A stretch of DNA of 33,881 nucleotides, from the IMG/VR virus record IMGVR_UViG_3300010885_016054, positions 1 through 33,881 of that record. One strand, given 5' to 3'. Position numbers and translations under genes: made by a program. This document shows positions 14,833 through 33,881 of this stretch, one piece after another. Source of the stretch: a virus. Within the stretch, counting starts at the first letter, position 1. Every line of letters begins with the position of its first letter. The notes beneath the pieces are model-generated. The model did no database searches and was not told the origin of the DNA. It worked only from the letters and a program-made list of their open reading frames with translations.

Positions 14833-15047
14833 TATTCAGTATAGCAATGGCTTTCGTTTTCGTTGAAATACTTCAAGTACCTTTCCGGTTAAAAGGGAAG
14901 CTTAACTTTAAGCCGTTAAATTGTGCTGTATGTATGTCCGGATGGTTCACATTGATTTTAATGGGGGTTCATTGGATTACCTTTCCACTTATGTGCCTGG
15001 CGATGATCGGGCAAATTCTTCTCACCGGATTAATTAATAAGTTATGA
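14823..15047 (+). CDS. Small membrane protein with CxxC motif
   Basis: 74 residues, overlapping the sigma-like gene by 10 nt. Two or three hydrophobic spans (VFSIAMAFVFVEILQV; GWFTLILMGVHWITFPL; CLAMIGQILLTGLI) with a polar connection KPLNCAVCMSGW. The NCxxCxxxW segment resembles a recurring motif in small Bacteroidetes phage membrane proteins of unknown role. Coupled to the glycosyltransferase by a 4-nt overlap. May anchor or assist it. Confidence 0.65.
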   Translation: MEVVFSIAMAFVFVEILQVPFRLKGKLNFKPLNCAVCMSGWFTLILMGVHWITFPLMCLAMIGQILLTGLINKL

Positions 15048-16048
15048 GGATAATTGGAATCGTTAACCAATCTTCAGGTAGTTGCTATCATAGGGTTTAT
15101 ACTCCACTGATGAATATCGACTGTGATGTTCATATCACCAATAAACTCACAGAAGAACAGCTTGAAAAGGGTTTCGATGTGGTAGTGATCAATCGGTTTT
15201 CTTTTTACAACACAGCCGAGGAGATTTTTGAATGGAGGGATAAATATAAATTCAAATTAGTTATAGACATCGATGATTACTGGGAACTAACACCCAGCCA
15301 TATTCTTTACGATAATTGGGTGCAGAACAATATCCCTAATATAATCCTCGAAAACATCACCCATGCTGACATTGTAACAACTACCCATGAGCGTTTGGCT
15401 GAGTACTCAAACAAGTACAACAAGAATATTCATATTTTACCAAACGCAATACCAGGAGGCTTCGAGCAGTTCAACATTAAAAAAGATATTTCAAAATATA
15501 CCCGCATAATGTACCAGGGTTCAATCACCCACAAGGATGATGTTGACATTTTAAAATATCCAATGCAAAAGGTCCATTCGGATTCAAGTCTTAAAAGAAA
15601 AATACAAACAGTATTTGGCGGCCATGTTAGAAACCTTGCTGATTCAGATGCAATGCTTTCCGCTTTTACCCATTCACTTACGCTGAATCCTTTAATCTTT
15701 AACGGATCGAAACCAAGTGAATACTATCAGATTTACAACTATGCTGACATTTGCTTAGTTCCGCTCCAAGAAAATAGGTTCAATTCGTATAAGTCGAATC
15801 TTAAAGTGCTGGAAGCAGCTTATGCCGGATGCCCAGTGATCGTGTCAAAGGTTGATCCTTATCTAGGGTTCCCCGATGACATAGTTAATTACATAAGTGA
15901 CCAAAAAGCATGGTATCGATATATAAAGATGTTGGTTGATAATCCTTTGTCAAGACAAATGGAAGGAAGGAACTTAATGGAGTACTGTAATAAGCATTAT
16001 AATTTCATAGAGATAAATAAAAAGCGTAAACAAATTTATGAAGGCTGA
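15044..16048 (+). CDS. GT-B fold glycosyltransferase (GT4-like)
   Basis: 334 residues. The N-terminal Rossmann half has VVVINRFSF and the acidic segment LVIDIDDYW (72-80); the C-terminal half has VPLQENRFNSYKSNLKVLEAAYAGCPVIVS (239-268), a typical nucleotide-sugar site with E257 and the GxPVI loop. It transfers a sugar from a nucleotide donor; acceptor unknown. It lies between a small membrane protein and the packaging genes, unlike structural genes. Possible roles: changing host surface glycans (superinfection exclusion), or decorating the virion or DNA. Confidence 0.82.
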   Translation: MRIIGIVNQSSGSCYHRVYTPLMNIDCDVHITNKLTEEQLEKGFDVVVINRFSFYNTAEEIFEWRDKYKFKLVIDIDDYWELTPSHILYDNWVQNNIPNIILENITHADIVTTTHERLAEYSNKYNKNIHILPNAIPGGFEQFNIKKDISKYTRIMYQGSITHKDDVDILKYPMQKVHSDSSLKRKIQTVFGGHVRNLADSDAMLSAFTHSLTLNPLIFNGSKPSEYYQIYNYADICLVPLQENRFNSYKSNLKVLEAAYAGCPVIVSKVDPYLGFPDDIVNYISDQKAWYRYIKMLVDNPLSRQMEGRNLMEYCNKHYNFIEINKKRKQIYEG

Positions 16049-27438: not shown

Positions 27439-27816
27439 ATGATACAGCTAGTTCAAGGACATGATACGGATGTAGTAGTTACTCTTACTGAGAAGGTAAC
27501 GCTAGCTAACCCGTTTTATTTGTTTGTTTTTACCCATGAAACAACTAAGGCAGTGATCAGTATGGTGCTTTCATCGGGGGATGATTTGAGTTTATATACC
27601 TCCAGGTACAATGAATTTACCTTCTCCGCTTCTTATTTCTTAACCGCGGCTGTTGGGAAGTATACATATCAAGTTTTTGAACAAGATAATAGTTACAATA
27701 TAATCACCACTGGACTTAACGAAGTTGAAAACGGAAAGATGGACCTTAATAAAGCGACATCATTCGCATTCCAAACTTACACCACCGCCACAAATTACAC
27801 ATCTTATGCAGGATAA
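27439..27816 (+). CDS. Hypothetical structural-region protein
   Basis: 125 residues from ATG 27439; an upstream ATG at 27367 overlies a terminator and is unlikely. Beta-rich: VQGHDTDVVVTLTEKVTL, FYLFVFTHETTKAVISMVL, SRYNEFTFSASYFLTAAVGKYTYQVFEQD. It has the look of a small Ig-like or baseplate-type virion protein seen ahead of portal genes in Bacteroidetes phages. It overlaps the portal gene by 11 nt. Function unknown. Confidence 0.65.
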   Translation: MIQLVQGHDTDVVVTLTEKVTLANPFYLFVFTHETTKAVISMVLSSGDDLSLYTSRYNEFTFSASYFLTAAVGKYTYQVFEQDNSYNIITTGLNEVENGKMDLNKATSFAFQTYTTATNYTSYAG

Positions 27817-29848
27817 TATTATAGTACTCAATTTTGATGATTCCAAGATACCTGAGTTCAAGGAGGTAAAAGGGAAGCAGTTTGTATATTTTGGGGAGGA
27901 TAATTTATATCCGGATTATTTGATCAAATTGTTCAATAAGAGCGCAAAACACAATGCTATTATCAACGGTAAAGTAAACTATATCTTCGGTGATGGCTTC
28001 TATTGTAAAGTAAAAGATGCGGTCACTGATAGGTTTATATTCCAGGTGAATAGCTCAGGTGAATCTTTGAACGATATAGCTAAGAAATGTACGATCGATA
28101 TTGAGATATTTGGTGGATTCTATTTAAATATTATACCCAATAAGTTAGGACAGATTGCAGAGATATACCATTTAGATTTTAACCGGGTAAGGGCAAATGA
28201 GGATGGAAGCCAATTCTTTTATAAAAATGATTGGTCTTTGATGCGCGATAAGCCAAAAGAGTTTGCTGCTTTCAATCCCACAAAATTAGATGTAGCCTCT
28301 ATCTTTCAATACAAAGAATATAGGCCAGGACTTAGGACCTATCCGCTCCCTAATTACGTAGGTGCTATAAATTACATCGAGAGTGATATTGAGGTTTCAA
28401 AACATACTTTGACCAATGCAAAGACTGGGTTCTCAGCTACCAAGTTAATTAGTTTCTTCAATGGGGAACCAGCTCCCGAAATGCAAAGGGATATTCAAAA
28501 GCGTTTAGAGAAGAAGTTTACCGGTTCGGATGGTAGTAAAATAATTGTTTCTTTCAATAACGACCCAACAAAAAAACCCATCATCGATGATTTAGGTTCT
28601 TCAGACTTAACAAAGGAAGATTTTAACCGAGTGGACGAATTAATTACAGCCAATATAATGGCTGGACATCAGGTTACTTCCCCAAGTCTTTTTGGGATTA
28701 CCGAGCCTTCTAAATTGGGCAATAGTAACAATGGATTAAGAGTACCTTATGATATATTTTGCAACGTTTATGCAGCTTCAAAACAGCGCACACTCGAAAA
28801 GGTATTCAACTACTTAGCCAAGTTCAAAGGCATAAAGACAGAACTATTTATCCAGCCAGTAGATAAATTAGGATTTGAGTTTACCGATGCCACTGTTTTG
28901 GCGATTGCGCCTAGGTCTTGGATATTAGAGAAGATGGGCATTGATCCTTTAAAATATCCCGATGCTCCGGCTGGTGGAGCTGGTAAAACAGCACCTACAC
29001 AGATGCAGGATGTTAATAGCGTTTTAACCAATTTAACAGGGCGGCAGCACCAACAAATCAATAGGATAGTAAGACAGTTCACACAAGGAAAATTATCCAA
29101 GGATCAGGCTGCTTTGATGCTTAAAAACGGTTTTGGATTTTCGGATGATGATGTAAATAATTACCTCGGCACAAATGATGCTAAATTCTCAAAGGAACTC
29201 GATGAGGTAGATGTTGCAATGATGTTCAGCGAAGTGGGAGAGAGGGCAGAAGATTTCGATGTAGTATTTTCTCGGGAAGCAAACTTCACAAGCGATGAAG
29301 ATATGCAAGCATTCGAAACGAACTTTTATTCAAAAGACATATTTGCTACCTCCGCAGCCATCACTGGGGCAGAAATAGAAGTACTAAAGCTCATTCAAAA
29401 AGATAAAAACGTAACGGCTAAAACAGTTGCTGAGGCTTTGAGTATTGATGAGAGCTATGCTAGTAAAATAATGACTGATCTGCTCGACAAAGGAATGATT
29501 GCAACGGAGTCTGTTTTACAAAATGGCGAAATGGTGGTGGTAAGAACACTAACCAAAAAAATCCCATCATCAGTAGCAATTCAAAAAAAGCTACCTGAGA
29601 TAATGATTAAGTACAGCTATGAAGTTAAGCCGGGAGTTGGGGCTGCTATCATTGCAGGAACTAGGCCTTTTTGTAGGATGATGGTAGAAGATAGAAGGTA
29701 CTTCACAAGAGTACAAATTGAGGCAATAAGTTCCCGTCTTGGTTACTCCTTATGGGATCGCAGGGGTGGATTTTGGAATAAGGGCAACGGTAAAATATCA
29801 GCCAGTTGCCGCCACATTTGGAAAACAAACGTAGTAGTAAAAAAGTAA
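27806..29848 (+). CDS. Portal protein fused to wHTH and gpF-like C-terminal segments
   Basis: 680 residues from ATG 27806 (frame open upstream, but that part overlaps the preceding gene). Residues 1-about 385 are portal-like (GEDNLYPDYLIKLFNKSAKHNAIINGKVNYIFGDG, then FNRVDELITANIMAGHQVTSPSLFGI). Around 521-568 is a winged-helix-like unit (EIEVLKLIQKDKNVTAKTVAEALSIDESYASKIMTDLLDKG). The last 80 residues (TRPFCRMMV, RVQIEAISSRLG, LWDRRGGFW, CRHIW) match the C-terminal part of gpF/MuF-type head proteins. So it probably forms the DNA gateway and carries a minor head extension. A fusion of this kind is not the usual portal of about 450-550 residues. Confidence 0.78.
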   Translation: MQDNIIVLNFDDSKIPEFKEVKGKQFVYFGEDNLYPDYLIKLFNKSAKHNAIINGKVNYIFGDGFYCKVKDAVTDRFIFQVNSSGESLNDIAKKCTIDIEIFGGFYLNIIPNKLGQIAEIYHLDFNRVRANEDGSQFFYKNDWSLMRDKPKEFAAFNPTKLDVASIFQYKEYRPGLRTYPLPNYVGAINYIESDIEVSKHTLTNAKTGFSATKLISFFNGEPAPEMQRDIQKRLEKKFTGSDGSKIIVSFNNDPTKKPIIDDLGSSDLTKEDFNRVDELITANIMAGHQVTSPSLFGITEPSKLGNSNNGLRVPYDIFCNVYAASKQRTLEKVFNYLAKFKGIKTELFIQPVDKLGFEFTDATVLAIAPRSWILEKMGIDPLKYPDAPAGGAGKTAPTQMQDVNSVLTNLTGRQHQQINRIVRQFTQGKLSKDQAALMLKNGFGFSDDDVNNYLGTNDAKFSKELDEVDVAMMFSEVGERAEDFDVVFSREANFTSDEDMQAFETNFYSKDIFATSAAITGAEIEVLKLIQKDKNVTAKTVAEALSIDESYASKIMTDLLDKGMIATESVLQNGEMVVVRTLTKKIPSSVAIQKKLPEIMIKYSYEVKPGVGAAIIAGTRPFCRMMVEDRRYFTRVQIEAISSRLGYSLWDRRGGFWNKGNGKISASCRHIWKTNVVVKK

Positions 29849-30439: not shown

Positions 30440-30559
30440 ATGAGTAAAAATATTAACAAAGTAAACGAAGAAAAGTTAAAAGTATTTCTAGCAAAACAAA
30501 AGAAAAATGACATTAAACCAGGTAGTAATAAGATTAAAAGCACTCGCGCTAAGTCATAA
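30440..30559 (+). CDS. Possible 39-residue basic protein overlapping the next gene
   Basis: ATG 30440 comes 2 nt after the connector stop and reads to TAA 30557-30559, overlapping the next gene (start 30507) by 53 nt. The product is very basic (KVNEEKLKVFLAKQKKND; KPGSNKIKSTRAKS). Good placement supports it, but such an A-rich region makes basic ORFs by chance. Confidence 0.4.
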   Translation: MSKNINKVNEEKLKVFLAKQKKNDIKPGSNKIKSTRAKS

Positions 30560-31220
30560 GCAGATACACCACTTTTATTTTGGTGATATTATCGAATGGC
30601 TTGCAAATGGTGATGTGCAATATCCCTGCTGCTTTGTGGAGATCAATAATTCTGAAATAAGCAAAGAGGACCATTTAACAAAATATAATTTATCTATTTG
30701 GTTTTTAGACCTAGTGAACGTAGACACGAAGACAAAGGCGAATGAGATTGATGTAATGAGTGATCTTACAGCGATGGCAGAAGATTATACCGCACTACTA
30801 AACTACATCGATAACCAGGATGATTTAACGATCAATACAAGTTACAACTTGCAATATTTCAGGGAGAAATTTGAAGATTTAACGATTGCTGTTAAACTGG
30901 ATATTATGGTAGCGGTGGATTATACTTCTAATCGTTGCCAAGTTCCTGCGACTGGGGTAGTATTCCCTCCAGTTGTTCCTGTTGACTATAACATAGTGTA
31001 CAATTATATCTACACCGCCACAGGTGATGAAGGTAATATTATTATAAACGCTGATTTAATTTCAAAAACCATTTTAATGCTTTTCAAAGGTGATAAGTTA
31101 TTAATCCCAACAGTTAGCTTGTCATCAACAGATCAGTATAATTATAATTCAGCGACAGGAGAATTTTATTTTGGTTCAGACTTTGAAGCTGGGCAAGTAC
31201 TTCAATTTATTTATAAATGA
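30507..31220 (+). CDS. Tail-completion/terminator-like protein with C-terminal accessory domain
   Basis: 237 residues. Residues 1-150 look like a neck/tail-terminator protein (QIHHFYFGDIIEWLANGDVQYPCCFVEINN, LSIWFLDLV, MSDLTAMAEDYTALL, ending in NRCQVP). A Pro/Val linker (TGVVFPPVVPVDYNIV) leads to a 73-residue domain (165-237, YNYIYTATGDEGN ... FGSDFEAGQVLQFIYK) which is repeated as the separate gene that follows. The C-terminal domain is probably exposed on the virion or binds a partner. Function inferred from position. Confidence 0.65.
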   Translation: MTLNQVVIRLKALALSHKQIHHFYFGDIIEWLANGDVQYPCCFVEINNSEISKEDHLTKYNLSIWFLDLVNVDTKTKANEIDVMSDLTAMAEDYTALLNYIDNQDDLTINTSYNLQYFREKFEDLTIAVKLDIMVAVDYTSNRCQVPATGVVFPPVVPVDYNIVYNYIYTATGDEGNIIINADLISKTILMLFKGDKLLIPTVSLSSTDQYNYNSATGEFYFGSDFEAGQVLQFIYK

Positions 31221-31444
31221 GTTTGCTCAATTACATATATACCGCCAGTGGAGCCGAGGGCAACTACATTGTAGTTGATTCATTGAAAGGTAAGACTATA
31301 TTGATATTAGTCAAAGGAAAGATCCTCACTCCGGCTGTGGGCTTACCGACAATGGACCAGTACAGTTATGATGCAACTTCGGGAAGGTTTGATTTTGGAA
31401 ATGATTTTGAAACCGGGCAATGCCTACAATTAATTTATAGATGA
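31217..31444 (+). CDS. Stand-alone paralogue of the preceding C-terminal domain
   Basis: 75 residues. It aligns end to end with residues 165-237 of the preceding protein; about 41 of 72 positions are identical by eye (NYIYTA, KTIL, DQY, DFE, LQ and IY blocks) with one 1-residue gap. Start and stop both overlap neighbours by 4 nt (31217-31220, 31441-31444). Small beta-rich domain of the kind that decorates Bacteroidetes phage tails. Likely an oligomeric virion or fibre accessory. Confidence 0.75.
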   Translation: MSLLNYIYTASGAEGNYIVVDSLKGKTILILVKGKILTPAVGLPTMDQYSYDATSGRFDFGNDFETGQCLQLIYR

Positions 31445-33240
31445 GATTATTAATTACTTTTTTATTAGTATGCGCTTTTTTTGGTGCTGGTGCGCAGAGT
31501 TTTGACTCTACTAAACTGTATAGAAGTTTGGATTACGGCTGGCAATATAAGCGCGTGAAAATAGATAGCATCTTGAAGCTCCCCAATGGAGTAATCATCA
31601 ACCGGTCCTGGGAGTTCCCTGTTACCGATACCAGTTCAATTAGTAGCCGCATCAATTACCGGGTGAGGTACTCCGATACCGCTGCGATGCTATTGCCTTA
31701 TTATTGGGCATCTAACCCAGCTAGTTACATCACTGCCGCAGCCATCACAGGCAAGGTGAATGTAAGCGATACCGCAACTATGTTGAGCGGCTATCAATCA
31801 GCAATCGGATTAAAGGCAGCCAAAGCCACCACCTTAACCATCAATGGAACAGGGTTCGACCTTTCAGCAAATAGATCCTGGACTATACCTACTACTGATA
31901 CAACAAGTCTTTCAAATAGAATAAACACAAAACAAAATATAATTACCAATCCAATTTCAGGAACAGGCACAAGCGGACAAGTAGCATATTGGAATGGTAC
32001 AAGTACACAAACAGGAAGTGCAACATTAACCTATACTCCTACTTCTACTTTTTTAATTAATAATAGTGTTACTGCTGCATCAGGAATAGCAAGAGGAAAA
32101 TATCAAACATCAACTTTAATTGCTGCTGCAAATAGTGATACTTTAGTTAGTACAGATTTGAAAGGAACATTTACAAACGGTGCTTTTACTGGGGTGCAAA
32201 ATTATGGATTAAGGACACAAGTTTCAAGTGCAACAGGAAGTTATAATATTTATTCGAGTGGAACTGCTGCTAATTATTTTAATGGTAGAATTCTTTTAGG
32301 TTCAAATGTTGACGATGGAGTAAATAAATTGCAAGTTAATGGAAGTGCAAAAATTAGTTTAGACGCTAATATAAATACTATTACAGTAGGATTAGGTTTT
32401 TCAAGTATTTCTACTAATACGGCTATTGGAAAATCTGCTTTAGCTGCTAATACAACAGGTAATACTAATACGGCTATGTCTTATGAAAGTTTAAAAGCAA
32501 ATACGGTTGGTGGTGCGAATACTGCTGTGGGTTATAGTTCTCTTATATCAAATGTAGATGGTACAAATAATACGGCTTACGGTCAACAAAGTTTAAGATC
32601 TAACATTTCCGGAAATCAAAACGTTGCAATAGGTAGTGAAAGTCTTAAAGCTAACACTAATAGTAATAATACTGCCGTTGGTTATAATTCTCTTTATTAT
32701 AATGTTGGAGCTTCTAATAATTCAGCGCTGGGACATCAAAGTTTATATAATACAACATCAGGAGGTAATAACGTTGGTATTGGAGTAAGAAGTTTGTTCG
32801 GAAATACGGTTGGTGCAAATAATACCGCCATTGGTTATTTTTCAGGTAATCAAATTGCAGATGGTTTTACCTTTGCCACAAATTCAAGTTATTCAACTTT
32901 TATTGGTTATGGCACAAAACCTTTGGCTGATAATCAAAATAATCAAACTATTTTAGGTTACAATCAAACAGGCTTAGGAAGTAATACTACAATAATAGGA
33001 GGTGTTGGTAATGTTTTAACGGCTCTAGTTGGTAGTGTATTAATTGGTACAACTACGGCGGTAACTTCAACAATATTAGCTTTAAATTCAACAACAACAG
33101 GTTTTCTTCCACCCAAAATGACAACCACCCAAAAATTAGCAATAGCAACTCCAGCCGAAGGATTAATGGTTTATGATTTAACCCTTCATAAATTATGCGT
33201 TTACACAGGTTCAGCTTGGGAAACAATTACATCGTTATAA
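31441..33240 (+). CDS. Tail fibre/adhesin with signal peptide and YadA-like repeats
   Basis: 599 residues. The N-terminus MRLLITFLLVCAFFGAGAQS is a Sec-type signal peptide ending in AQ, usual for secreted Bacteroidetes proteins. Residues about 20-160 hold loose repeats with SDTAAMLLPYY / SDTATMLSGYQ, common in phage fibre-like proteins. From residue 326 eight 16-17 residue repeats (NTAVGYSSLISN type) resemble trimeric autotransporter YadA-head turns. The end (LPPKMTTTQKLAIATP ... GLMVYDLTLHKLCVYTG) is a frequent fibre C-terminus. It is either the receptor-binding fibre or a surface adhesin. The DNA becomes markedly more AT-rich after about 31900. Confidence 0.7.
   Translation: MRLLITFLLVCAFFGAGAQSFDSTKLYRSLDYGWQYKRVKIDSILKLPNGVIINRSWEFPVTDTSSISSRINYRVRYSDTAAMLLPYYWASNPASYITAAAITGKVNVSDTATMLSGYQSAIGLKAAKATTLTINGTGFDLSANRSWTIPTTDTTSLSNRINTKQNIITNPISGTGTSGQVAYWNGTSTQTGSATLTYTPTSTFLINNSVTAASGIARGKYQTSTLIAAANSDTLVSTDLKGTFTNGAFTGVQNYGLRTQVSSATGSYNIYSSGTAANYFNGRILLGSNVDDGVNKLQVNGSAKISLDANINTITVGLGFSSISTNTAIGKSALAANTTGNTNTAMSYESLKANTVGGANTAVGYSSLISNVDGTNNTAYGQQSLRSNISGNQNVAIGSESLKANTNSNNTAVGYNSLYYNVGASNNSALGHQSLYNTTSGGNNVGIGVRSLFGNTVGANNTAIGYFSGNQIADGFTFATNSSYSTFIGYGTKPLADNQNNQTILGYNQTGLGSNTTIIGGVGNVLTALVGSVLIGTTTAVTSTILALNSTTTGFLPPKMTTTQKLAIATPAEGLMVYDLTLHKLCVYTGSAWETITSL
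32416..32850 (+). repeat. Eight tandem 16-17-residue YadA-like coding repeats
   Basis: Each unit reads N-T-A-x-G-x-x-S-L-x-x-N-x-x-G-x-N (for example NTAVGYSSLISNVDGTN, NVAIGSESLKANTNSN, NSALGHQSLYNTTSGGN), with seven 51-nt units, one of 48 nt, and a ninth partial unit. Conserved Asn, Gly and Ser-Leu columns suit a left-handed beta-roll like YadA heads. Units differ at many bases, so the array is old or under selection rather than a recent slippage product. Confidence 0.8.
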
Positions 33241-33255
33241 ATTAAATAAATAAAA

Positions 33256-33588
33256 ATGAAAAAAGTAATATTATCAATTTTAGTTTTTGCAAGTTTAACA
33301 ACTAAAGCACAAGATACAACTGTTTACACCAAAGGTGCAATCCTTATCCAGCCTATCATTGTAAATGCACAAGGTGATTCAGCATATTCAATATTATGGT
33401 CTGCATTTGGTCTTAGTAATAATGGTGAAGGATGCAGTACCTATGTTATTTTAAACGGAAAACAAAATCAAAAGTTATCAGATTTTAATTGTGGGATTCC
33501 TTCGTACATAGTTAACCAATGGGGAACGGATAACACAATTATAGATGATTATATTCTTTCACAATATCCGAGATTTAAAAAGCTATGA
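33256..33588 (+). CDS. Secreted hypothetical protein
   Basis: 110 residues. Signal peptide MKKVILSILVFASLTTKAQ with a typical Bacteroidetes -AQ cleavage end, then a small mature domain (about 91 residues) with two Cys (EGCSTYV, DFNCGI) that could pair, and aromatic ends. It lies directly after the fibre gene with the same AT-rich composition, and its stop overlaps the next gene as ATGA. It may be a periplasmic or exported partner of the fibre, or a lysogenic conversion gene. I do not recognise the family. Confidence 0.65.
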   Translation: MKKVILSILVFASLTTKAQDTTVYTKGAILIQPIIVNAQGDSAYSILWSAFGLSNNGEGCSTYVILNGKQNQKLSDFNCGIPSYIVNQWGTDNTIIDDYILSQYPRFKKL

Positions 33589-33743: not shown

Positions 33744-33881
33744 AACGAGTTTGGCTGGATTAGTAGCTGGTATTCCTTTTATCATTGATGCGCTTATACA
33801 AGCTTATTCCGCAGGAACTTTCACAGGAAAAACAGGATTGCAATTAGTTGCAGCGATTGGTGTAGTATTATTAGGATTGTA
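33730..33881 (+). CDS. Holin-like small membrane protein, 5' part (continues at base 124)
   Basis: ATG 33730 opens a frame that runs off the contig end and, because of the 123-bp overlap, continues at position 124 to the TAG at 152-154. It begins MKNFKTSLAGLVAGIPFI. See the 3' part at 1-154. Its start lies inside the last codons of the preceding holin candidate. Function inferred from two spans and lysis-region position. Confidence 0.7.
   Translation, partial: MKNFKTSLAGLVAGIPFIIDALIQAYSAGTFTGKTGLQLVAAIGVVLLGL
33759..33881. repeat. Terminal direct repeat, right copy
   Basis: These 123 bases equal bases 1-123. See the left copy; counting one copy gives a circle of about 33,758 bp. Confidence 0.95.

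Follow-up and report, generated by a model that had tools for sequence, protein, structure and literature searches.

The protein encoded at positions 31,441–33,240 (+ strand) of the window, by which we mean the whole stretch of 33,881 nucleotides of viral DNA analysed here, is most simply read as a receptor-binding fibre of the virion that would be exported by the Sec pathway, cleaved, stored outside the cytoplasm and attached to the tails at or after lysis, and we put the probability of this reading at roughly 0.6. The accepted view is that tailed phages finish their virions within the cytoplasm, and the first-pass annotation, which took it as a premise that virion fibres assemble there, regarded a clear signal peptide on a fibre-like protein as odd and proposed either a surface adhesin that changes the lysogen or a hydrophobic start kept as an anchor to the tail. 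Its observation is confirmed and its interpretation is partly supported; both of its readings are less likely than an exported virion fibre, and the premise itself is challenged by the finding. The steps of export, cleavage, periplasmic storage, late attachment and modification are those that we infer, and the membership of this fibre in the virion would be carried over from isolated phages by architecture and shared repeats, the window phage being known from its genes alone.

A canonical signal peptide on a late gene

The 599-residue product is assigned as a receptor-binding fibre by its late-operon locus, by matches to PHROG virion and tail-spike families (E down to 2e-21) and by the domains it has in common with other fibres. 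It begins with MRLLITFLLVCAFFGAGA, followed after the predicted cut by QSFDSTK, that is, with a basic n-region and an unbroken hydrophobic core, then A-G-A around the cleavage site with Gln at +1. Gln at this position after a signal peptidase I site is the Q-rule of the Bacteroidetes (PMC5837995), and all of its features (n-, h- and c-regions, small residues at −3 and −1, Gln at +1) are present, so that residues 1–18 (31,441–31,494, +) form a Sec/signal peptidase I signal peptide with predicted cleavage between A18 and Q19, an assignment that draws on the sequence, the specificity of the rule and conservation at the locus. Across 120 related loci, Gln stood at +1 in 58 of 58 signal-peptide-like sense ORFs of at least 300 residues, against 2 among 1,179 antisense ORFs and 5 among 1,724 N-termini after shuffling, under the same rule, which excludes a chance origin; the signal peptide is real and, as had been noticed, odd on a fibre. 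A Pfam search at E ≤ 1 found no C-terminal signal domain of the T9SS type in the fibre.

An exact repeat of 123 bases at the two ends (1–123 identical to 33,759–33,881) indicates that the record is circular or complete, and the fibre gene thus lies directly before the lysis cassette (138–1,087) of a temperate phage in which integrase, terminase, tape measure and portal are present. The order runs from the neck genes through the fibre, a second signal-peptide gene, the junction and a small membrane protein to the spanin candidate and the lysozyme. Upstream, a 237-residue gene (30,507–31,220, +) occupies, judging by its place before the fibre, the neck or tail-completion position, and it is followed by a 75-residue protein (31,217–31,444, +) that duplicates the C-terminal domain of its product with 57% identity and ends in a stop codon overlapping the start of the fibre (ATGA). 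Downstream, across the circular junction, the lysis cassette comprises a lipoprotein-like spanin candidate (138–644, +) and a lysozyme-type endolysin (569–1,087, +). No terminator was found between the fibre and the lysis cassette, and promoter-like sites were at chance level, which together with the start/stop overlap suggests that the fibre gene is expressed late with the virion and lysis genes and is not a moron. A captured host adhesin with its own promoter was also considered, and was set aside on the same terminator and promoter results.

The second signal-peptide protein (110 residues, 33,256–33,588, +) also follows the Q-rule, with MKKVILSILVFASLTTKA cut before QDTT, and is conserved beside signal-peptide fibres; its homologue in one relative (L089, 14,907–15,185) has no signal peptide, although the fibre of that relative has one. 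Its structure model, of intermediate confidence, has phage proteins without a characterised function as its only matches, and a periplasmic partner or chaperone of the fibre is a possible role. In the QVYQAMPQ subfamily a third Q-rule protein of 73 residues stands between the fibre and the second protein (L002, 11,397–11,618, and similar cases). Elsewhere in the window, upstream of the terminase, a group 1 glycosyltransferase (PF13692, above cut-off) is encoded at 15,044–16,048, and may act on the fibre or on host glycans.

A phage fibre with a different front end

Relatives were gathered through IMG/VR scans with the neighbour protein and with the portal (27,803–29,848, +), which served as anchor, and 118 loci were obtained; a scan with the 75-residue protein that precedes the fibre gave no matches. 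The portal itself is extended at its C-terminus by some 300 residues, in which a winged helix is weakly matched around residues 520–569. Sixty-three loci had enough sequence beyond the portal, a few of them being one contig fetched twice, and there a long fibre (488–1,561 residues) carried a signal peptide with Gln at +1 in 50 and lacked a signal peptide in 13. On a tree of 49 portals from loci with a signal-peptide fibre and 15 from loci without, the label has switched at least three times. Among host prophages, relatives of the portal came only from two contigs of one Chitinophagaceae MAG and from a single scaffold of Mucilaginibacter, none of them with a signal-peptide fibre.

Within subfamilies of the signal-peptide fibres the mature N-terminus is kept and the bodies vary (QVYQxMPQ.GY, QxNDTTKYF.S.DYGW, QIGQGDDSTKYI, QY.PT.AKTRFV). 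In the window this segment, QSFDSTKLYRSLDYGWQYKRVKIDSILKLPNG... (31,495–31,800, +), is kept directly after the cleavage site in three relatives (L044, L045, L046), and it is likely to be the part by which the fibre would attach to the virion. The sister clade, in turn, has at the same locus a fibre that lacks a signal peptide and has an N-terminus typical of fibres, NVFSVFGRVGNVVGQAGDYT. These ordinary tailed-phage fibres (L074–L116; phrog_6002, 23837, 4636) share with the signal-peptide ones the locus, the length, the repeats, the C-terminal modules and the chaperone (Peptidase_S74, found in both kinds), and differ from them in having no signal peptide, in an attachment segment MEIINVTDEIIEINVT...FGRVGNVVGQAGDYT, and in a gene of 118–122 residues that precedes the fibre. 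The bodies cross this divide: residues 165–258 of the window fibre (31,933–32,214, +) are 63% identical to a fibre without a signal peptide (L091), and its C-terminal module GFLPPKMTTTQKLAIATPAEGLMVYD..W (residues 531–599, 33,031–33,240, +) is 56% identical to another (L116). Since the domains are common to both kinds, the signal-peptide protein is a fibre with a different front end and, as judged by this comparison of sequences, the ORF of the window is the phage's own fibre and not a captured adhesin.

Signal-peptide proteins in the virions of isolated phages

Virion membership was taken from the notes of RefSeq records on experimental MS/MS proteomics, the notes and not the spectra being relied on; a free fibre co-purifying with virions could in principle give the same signal. 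Twelve virion proteins so recorded carry Q-rule signal peptides in four isolated Cellulophaga phages that span at least two families (Assiduviridae, Pachyviridae): gp091–094 of phi10:1, gp101–103 of phi19:1, gp25–26 of phi39:1 (gp25, missed by the rule, was judged by eye) and gp085–087 of phi18:3. Most other MS/MS virion proteins of the same phages, including capsid and tail shaft, lack signal peptides. Not all Cellulophaga phages share the trait, since the MS/MS virion proteins of phi18:1 and phi46:1 are free of Q-rule signal peptides.

Here also the front ends travel separately from the bodies. The N-terminal 42 residues of gp094 recur with 88–93% identity in phi13:2, phi18:3 and Nekkels before unrelated bodies, the first 118–132 residues of gp093 are likewise retained in Nekkels and phi18:3, and the pectate-lyase body of gp093 reappears in phi17:2 and phi14:2 (44–49% identity) behind a different front end without a signal peptide, the phi14:2 protein (g086) being a recorded virion protein as well. 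Ingeline gp31, annotated as a virion structural protein, has a signal peptide and repeats in common with the window fibre (34%). The module of phi10:1, phi19:1, phi39:1, phi18:3 and Ingeline thus resembles the window in its Q-rule signal peptides on distal tail proteins, here consecutive, and in modular bodies after a conserved N-terminus; it differs in that the mature N-termini are non-homologous, that several such genes stand in a row and that glycosylation motifs are not enriched. Two distal genes of signal-peptide modules, gp104 of phi19:1 (L129, 21,814–23,154) and gp083 of phi46:3 (L142, 9,072–10,322), end in NQxLIYWRY, perhaps a C-terminal attachment tag, and g084 of phi14:2, without a signal peptide, has a like ending, NQNLIYWRI.

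That the protein is instead a secreted adhesin or decoy, acting on the host surface or free and not as a part of the virion, in lysogenic conversion, receptor blocking or superinfection exclusion, we consider unlikely. The signal peptide is real, a second exported protein adjoins the fibre gene and the phage, with its integrase, is temperate, all of which such a role would accommodate; yet the gene is translationally coupled to the neck genes in a late operon, directly before the lysis cassette, it takes the place of the ordinary fibre with that fibre's domains and chaperone, and analogous proteins are recorded in the virions of isolates. These points also disfavour the earlier proposal of an adhesin that changes the lysogen, even if exported fibres could serve both as virion part and as adhesin or decoy.

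The adhesin origin had been argued from eight YadA-like repeats of 16–17 residues. The repeats are real, and by motif positions and predicted strand spacing they number nine (motif N-x-[AG]-x-G, residues 326–476; 32,416–32,868, +), starting at residues 326, 343, 360, 377, 394, 410, 427, 444 and 461 with a spacing of 16–17, the unit at 343 reading NTAMS; a structure model of low confidence places one short strand in each, about every 17 residues. Their likeness to the YadA head holds only at the level of the motif. Pfam returned no YadA family at E ≤ 1, the PDB no sequence match, and the fold search nothing significant (best E 0.2), its sixth rank being CbpF, the CEACAM1-binding adhesin of Fusobacterium, at E 0.71. 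With YadA-type trimeric autotransporter adhesins the window fibre therefore shares a short repeat motif and a signal peptide, but it differs from them in these searches and in the membrane anchor: Pfam found no C-terminal outer-membrane anchor, the C-terminus being the fibre module already described. Membership in that class was accordingly rejected. The same repeats recur widely in fibres of phages from many phyla (81 records, with phages of Synechococcus, Bacillus, Escherichia, Pelagibacter and others) and so do not point to an adhesin; a convincing signal peptide was absent from the repeat-bearing fibres that were checked, those of Methylophilales, Escherichia and Pelagibacter phages and of one Flavobacterium phage.

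Probable marks of an extracytoplasmic life

Proteins outside the cytoplasm are the only ones in which the O-glycosylation motif of the Bacteroidota is functional (PMC12871550). Among 34 non-redundant signal-peptide fibres, taken in their mature form, the motif D[ST][AILMVT] occurs 353 times against 120.5 expected (2.93x), whereas seven fibres without a signal peptide at the same locus hold 29 against 36.9 (0.7–0.8x) and a further set of 100 phage proteins holds 157 where 170 are expected. Six sites lie in the window fibre, with 2.0 expected (3.05x over shuffles), part of them within repeated spacers; with the commonest spacer repeats masked, the enrichment is still 1.2–4.0x by subfamily. In the Cellulophaga signal-peptide virion proteins (L122, L128, L129, L137) the motif is depleted (0.49x), which could reflect avoidance of glycosylation, so that glycosylation is not the general reason for the export of fibres, and as a general explanation it was dropped, being fitted by the window's family but not by Cellulophaga. 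All QVYQxMPQYGY fibres examined have, in addition, two cysteines near the N-terminus with a separation of some 20 residues, one at mature position 28 and the other at 48–50, positions that shift by 5 where the cut is placed earlier.

These features bear on whether the hydrophobic N-terminus might remain unprocessed, as the idea of a start kept as a tail anchor supposed. In favour of an anchor, virions are built in the cytoplasm and yet have signal-peptide proteins recorded in them, and the first 42 or 118–132 residues are retained, signal peptide included, while the bodies are exchanged. However, a Gln kept strictly at +1 behind small residues, in front of more than ten unrelated mature N-termini, would have no reason without cleavage by signal peptidase I, the hydrophobic cores vary between families, and the enriched motif and the paired cysteines also count against it, all of which makes an uncleaved anchor distinctly improbable.

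A proposed route of export and late attachment

In the route that we propose for the exported virion fibre, the signal peptide would direct it to the inner membrane as a Sec substrate of its Bacteroidota host, where signal peptidase I would cut between A18 and Q19; the Gln thereby exposed at the N-terminus would probably cyclise to pyroglutamate. The mature protein would fold and trimerise outside the cytoplasm, in the window's family perhaps with O-glycans at D-S/T-hydrophobic sites or with disulphide bonds, while virions would be built without the fibre in the cytoplasm. The downstream holin, endolysin and spanin genes would then open the cell, and the stored fibres would meet the released tails and bind them through the mature N-terminal segment, with the benefit that virions could not bind receptor inside the producing cell, in addition to that of host modification. 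That fibres or spikes can be added to completed particles in vitro is classical for T4 and P22. Storage outside and attachment at lysis make a functional signal peptide compatible with membership in the virion; two pools, one of fibre that slips past Sec and joins virions in the cytoplasm and one, exported, that is a by-product or a decoy, would reconcile the same facts, but are very improbable, since the signal peptide is conserved and well formed and selection would act against it if the cytoplasmic pool alone mattered.

Whether many tailed phages of the Bacteroidota complete their virions in this way, with fibres and depolymerase spikes exported by Sec, modified by the host (as pyroglutamate and, in some lineages, with O-glycan or disulphide) and joined only at lysis, we judge to be about an even chance.

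Significance

The lyase proteins of Ingeline and Nekkels were noted to have "signaling peptides" (Bartlau et al., PMC8776804), and phages of Porphyromonas gingivalis carry five Q-rule genes of unknown function, grouped in one proposed family, which were read as possibly host-modifying (PMC10367356); their signal peptides are as in the window fibre, but the genes were not identified as fibres. The target proteins of phage DGRs have been stated to lack signal peptides (Hankyphage paper, PMC6199706). Searches of the open literature turned up no paper on signal-peptide fibres as a route of virion assembly, and the Sec-exported virion fibre is most likely a widespread variant on the way in which phages of the Bacteroidota assemble their tail fibres, one that has apparently escaped notice.

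If so, the parts that recognise the host would first cross the inner membrane, adding a step of assembly at or after lysis, and phage proteins would be exposed to the glycosylation, oxidation and pyroglutamate machinery of the host. New virions would stay blind to the receptors of the cell that produces them. Such a route would explain some of the signal peptides of Bacteroidota phages that present listings class as secreted or unknown. Annotation is affected as well, since the "adhesins" and "lyases" with signal peptides in prophages of the Bacteroidota may be parts of the virion.
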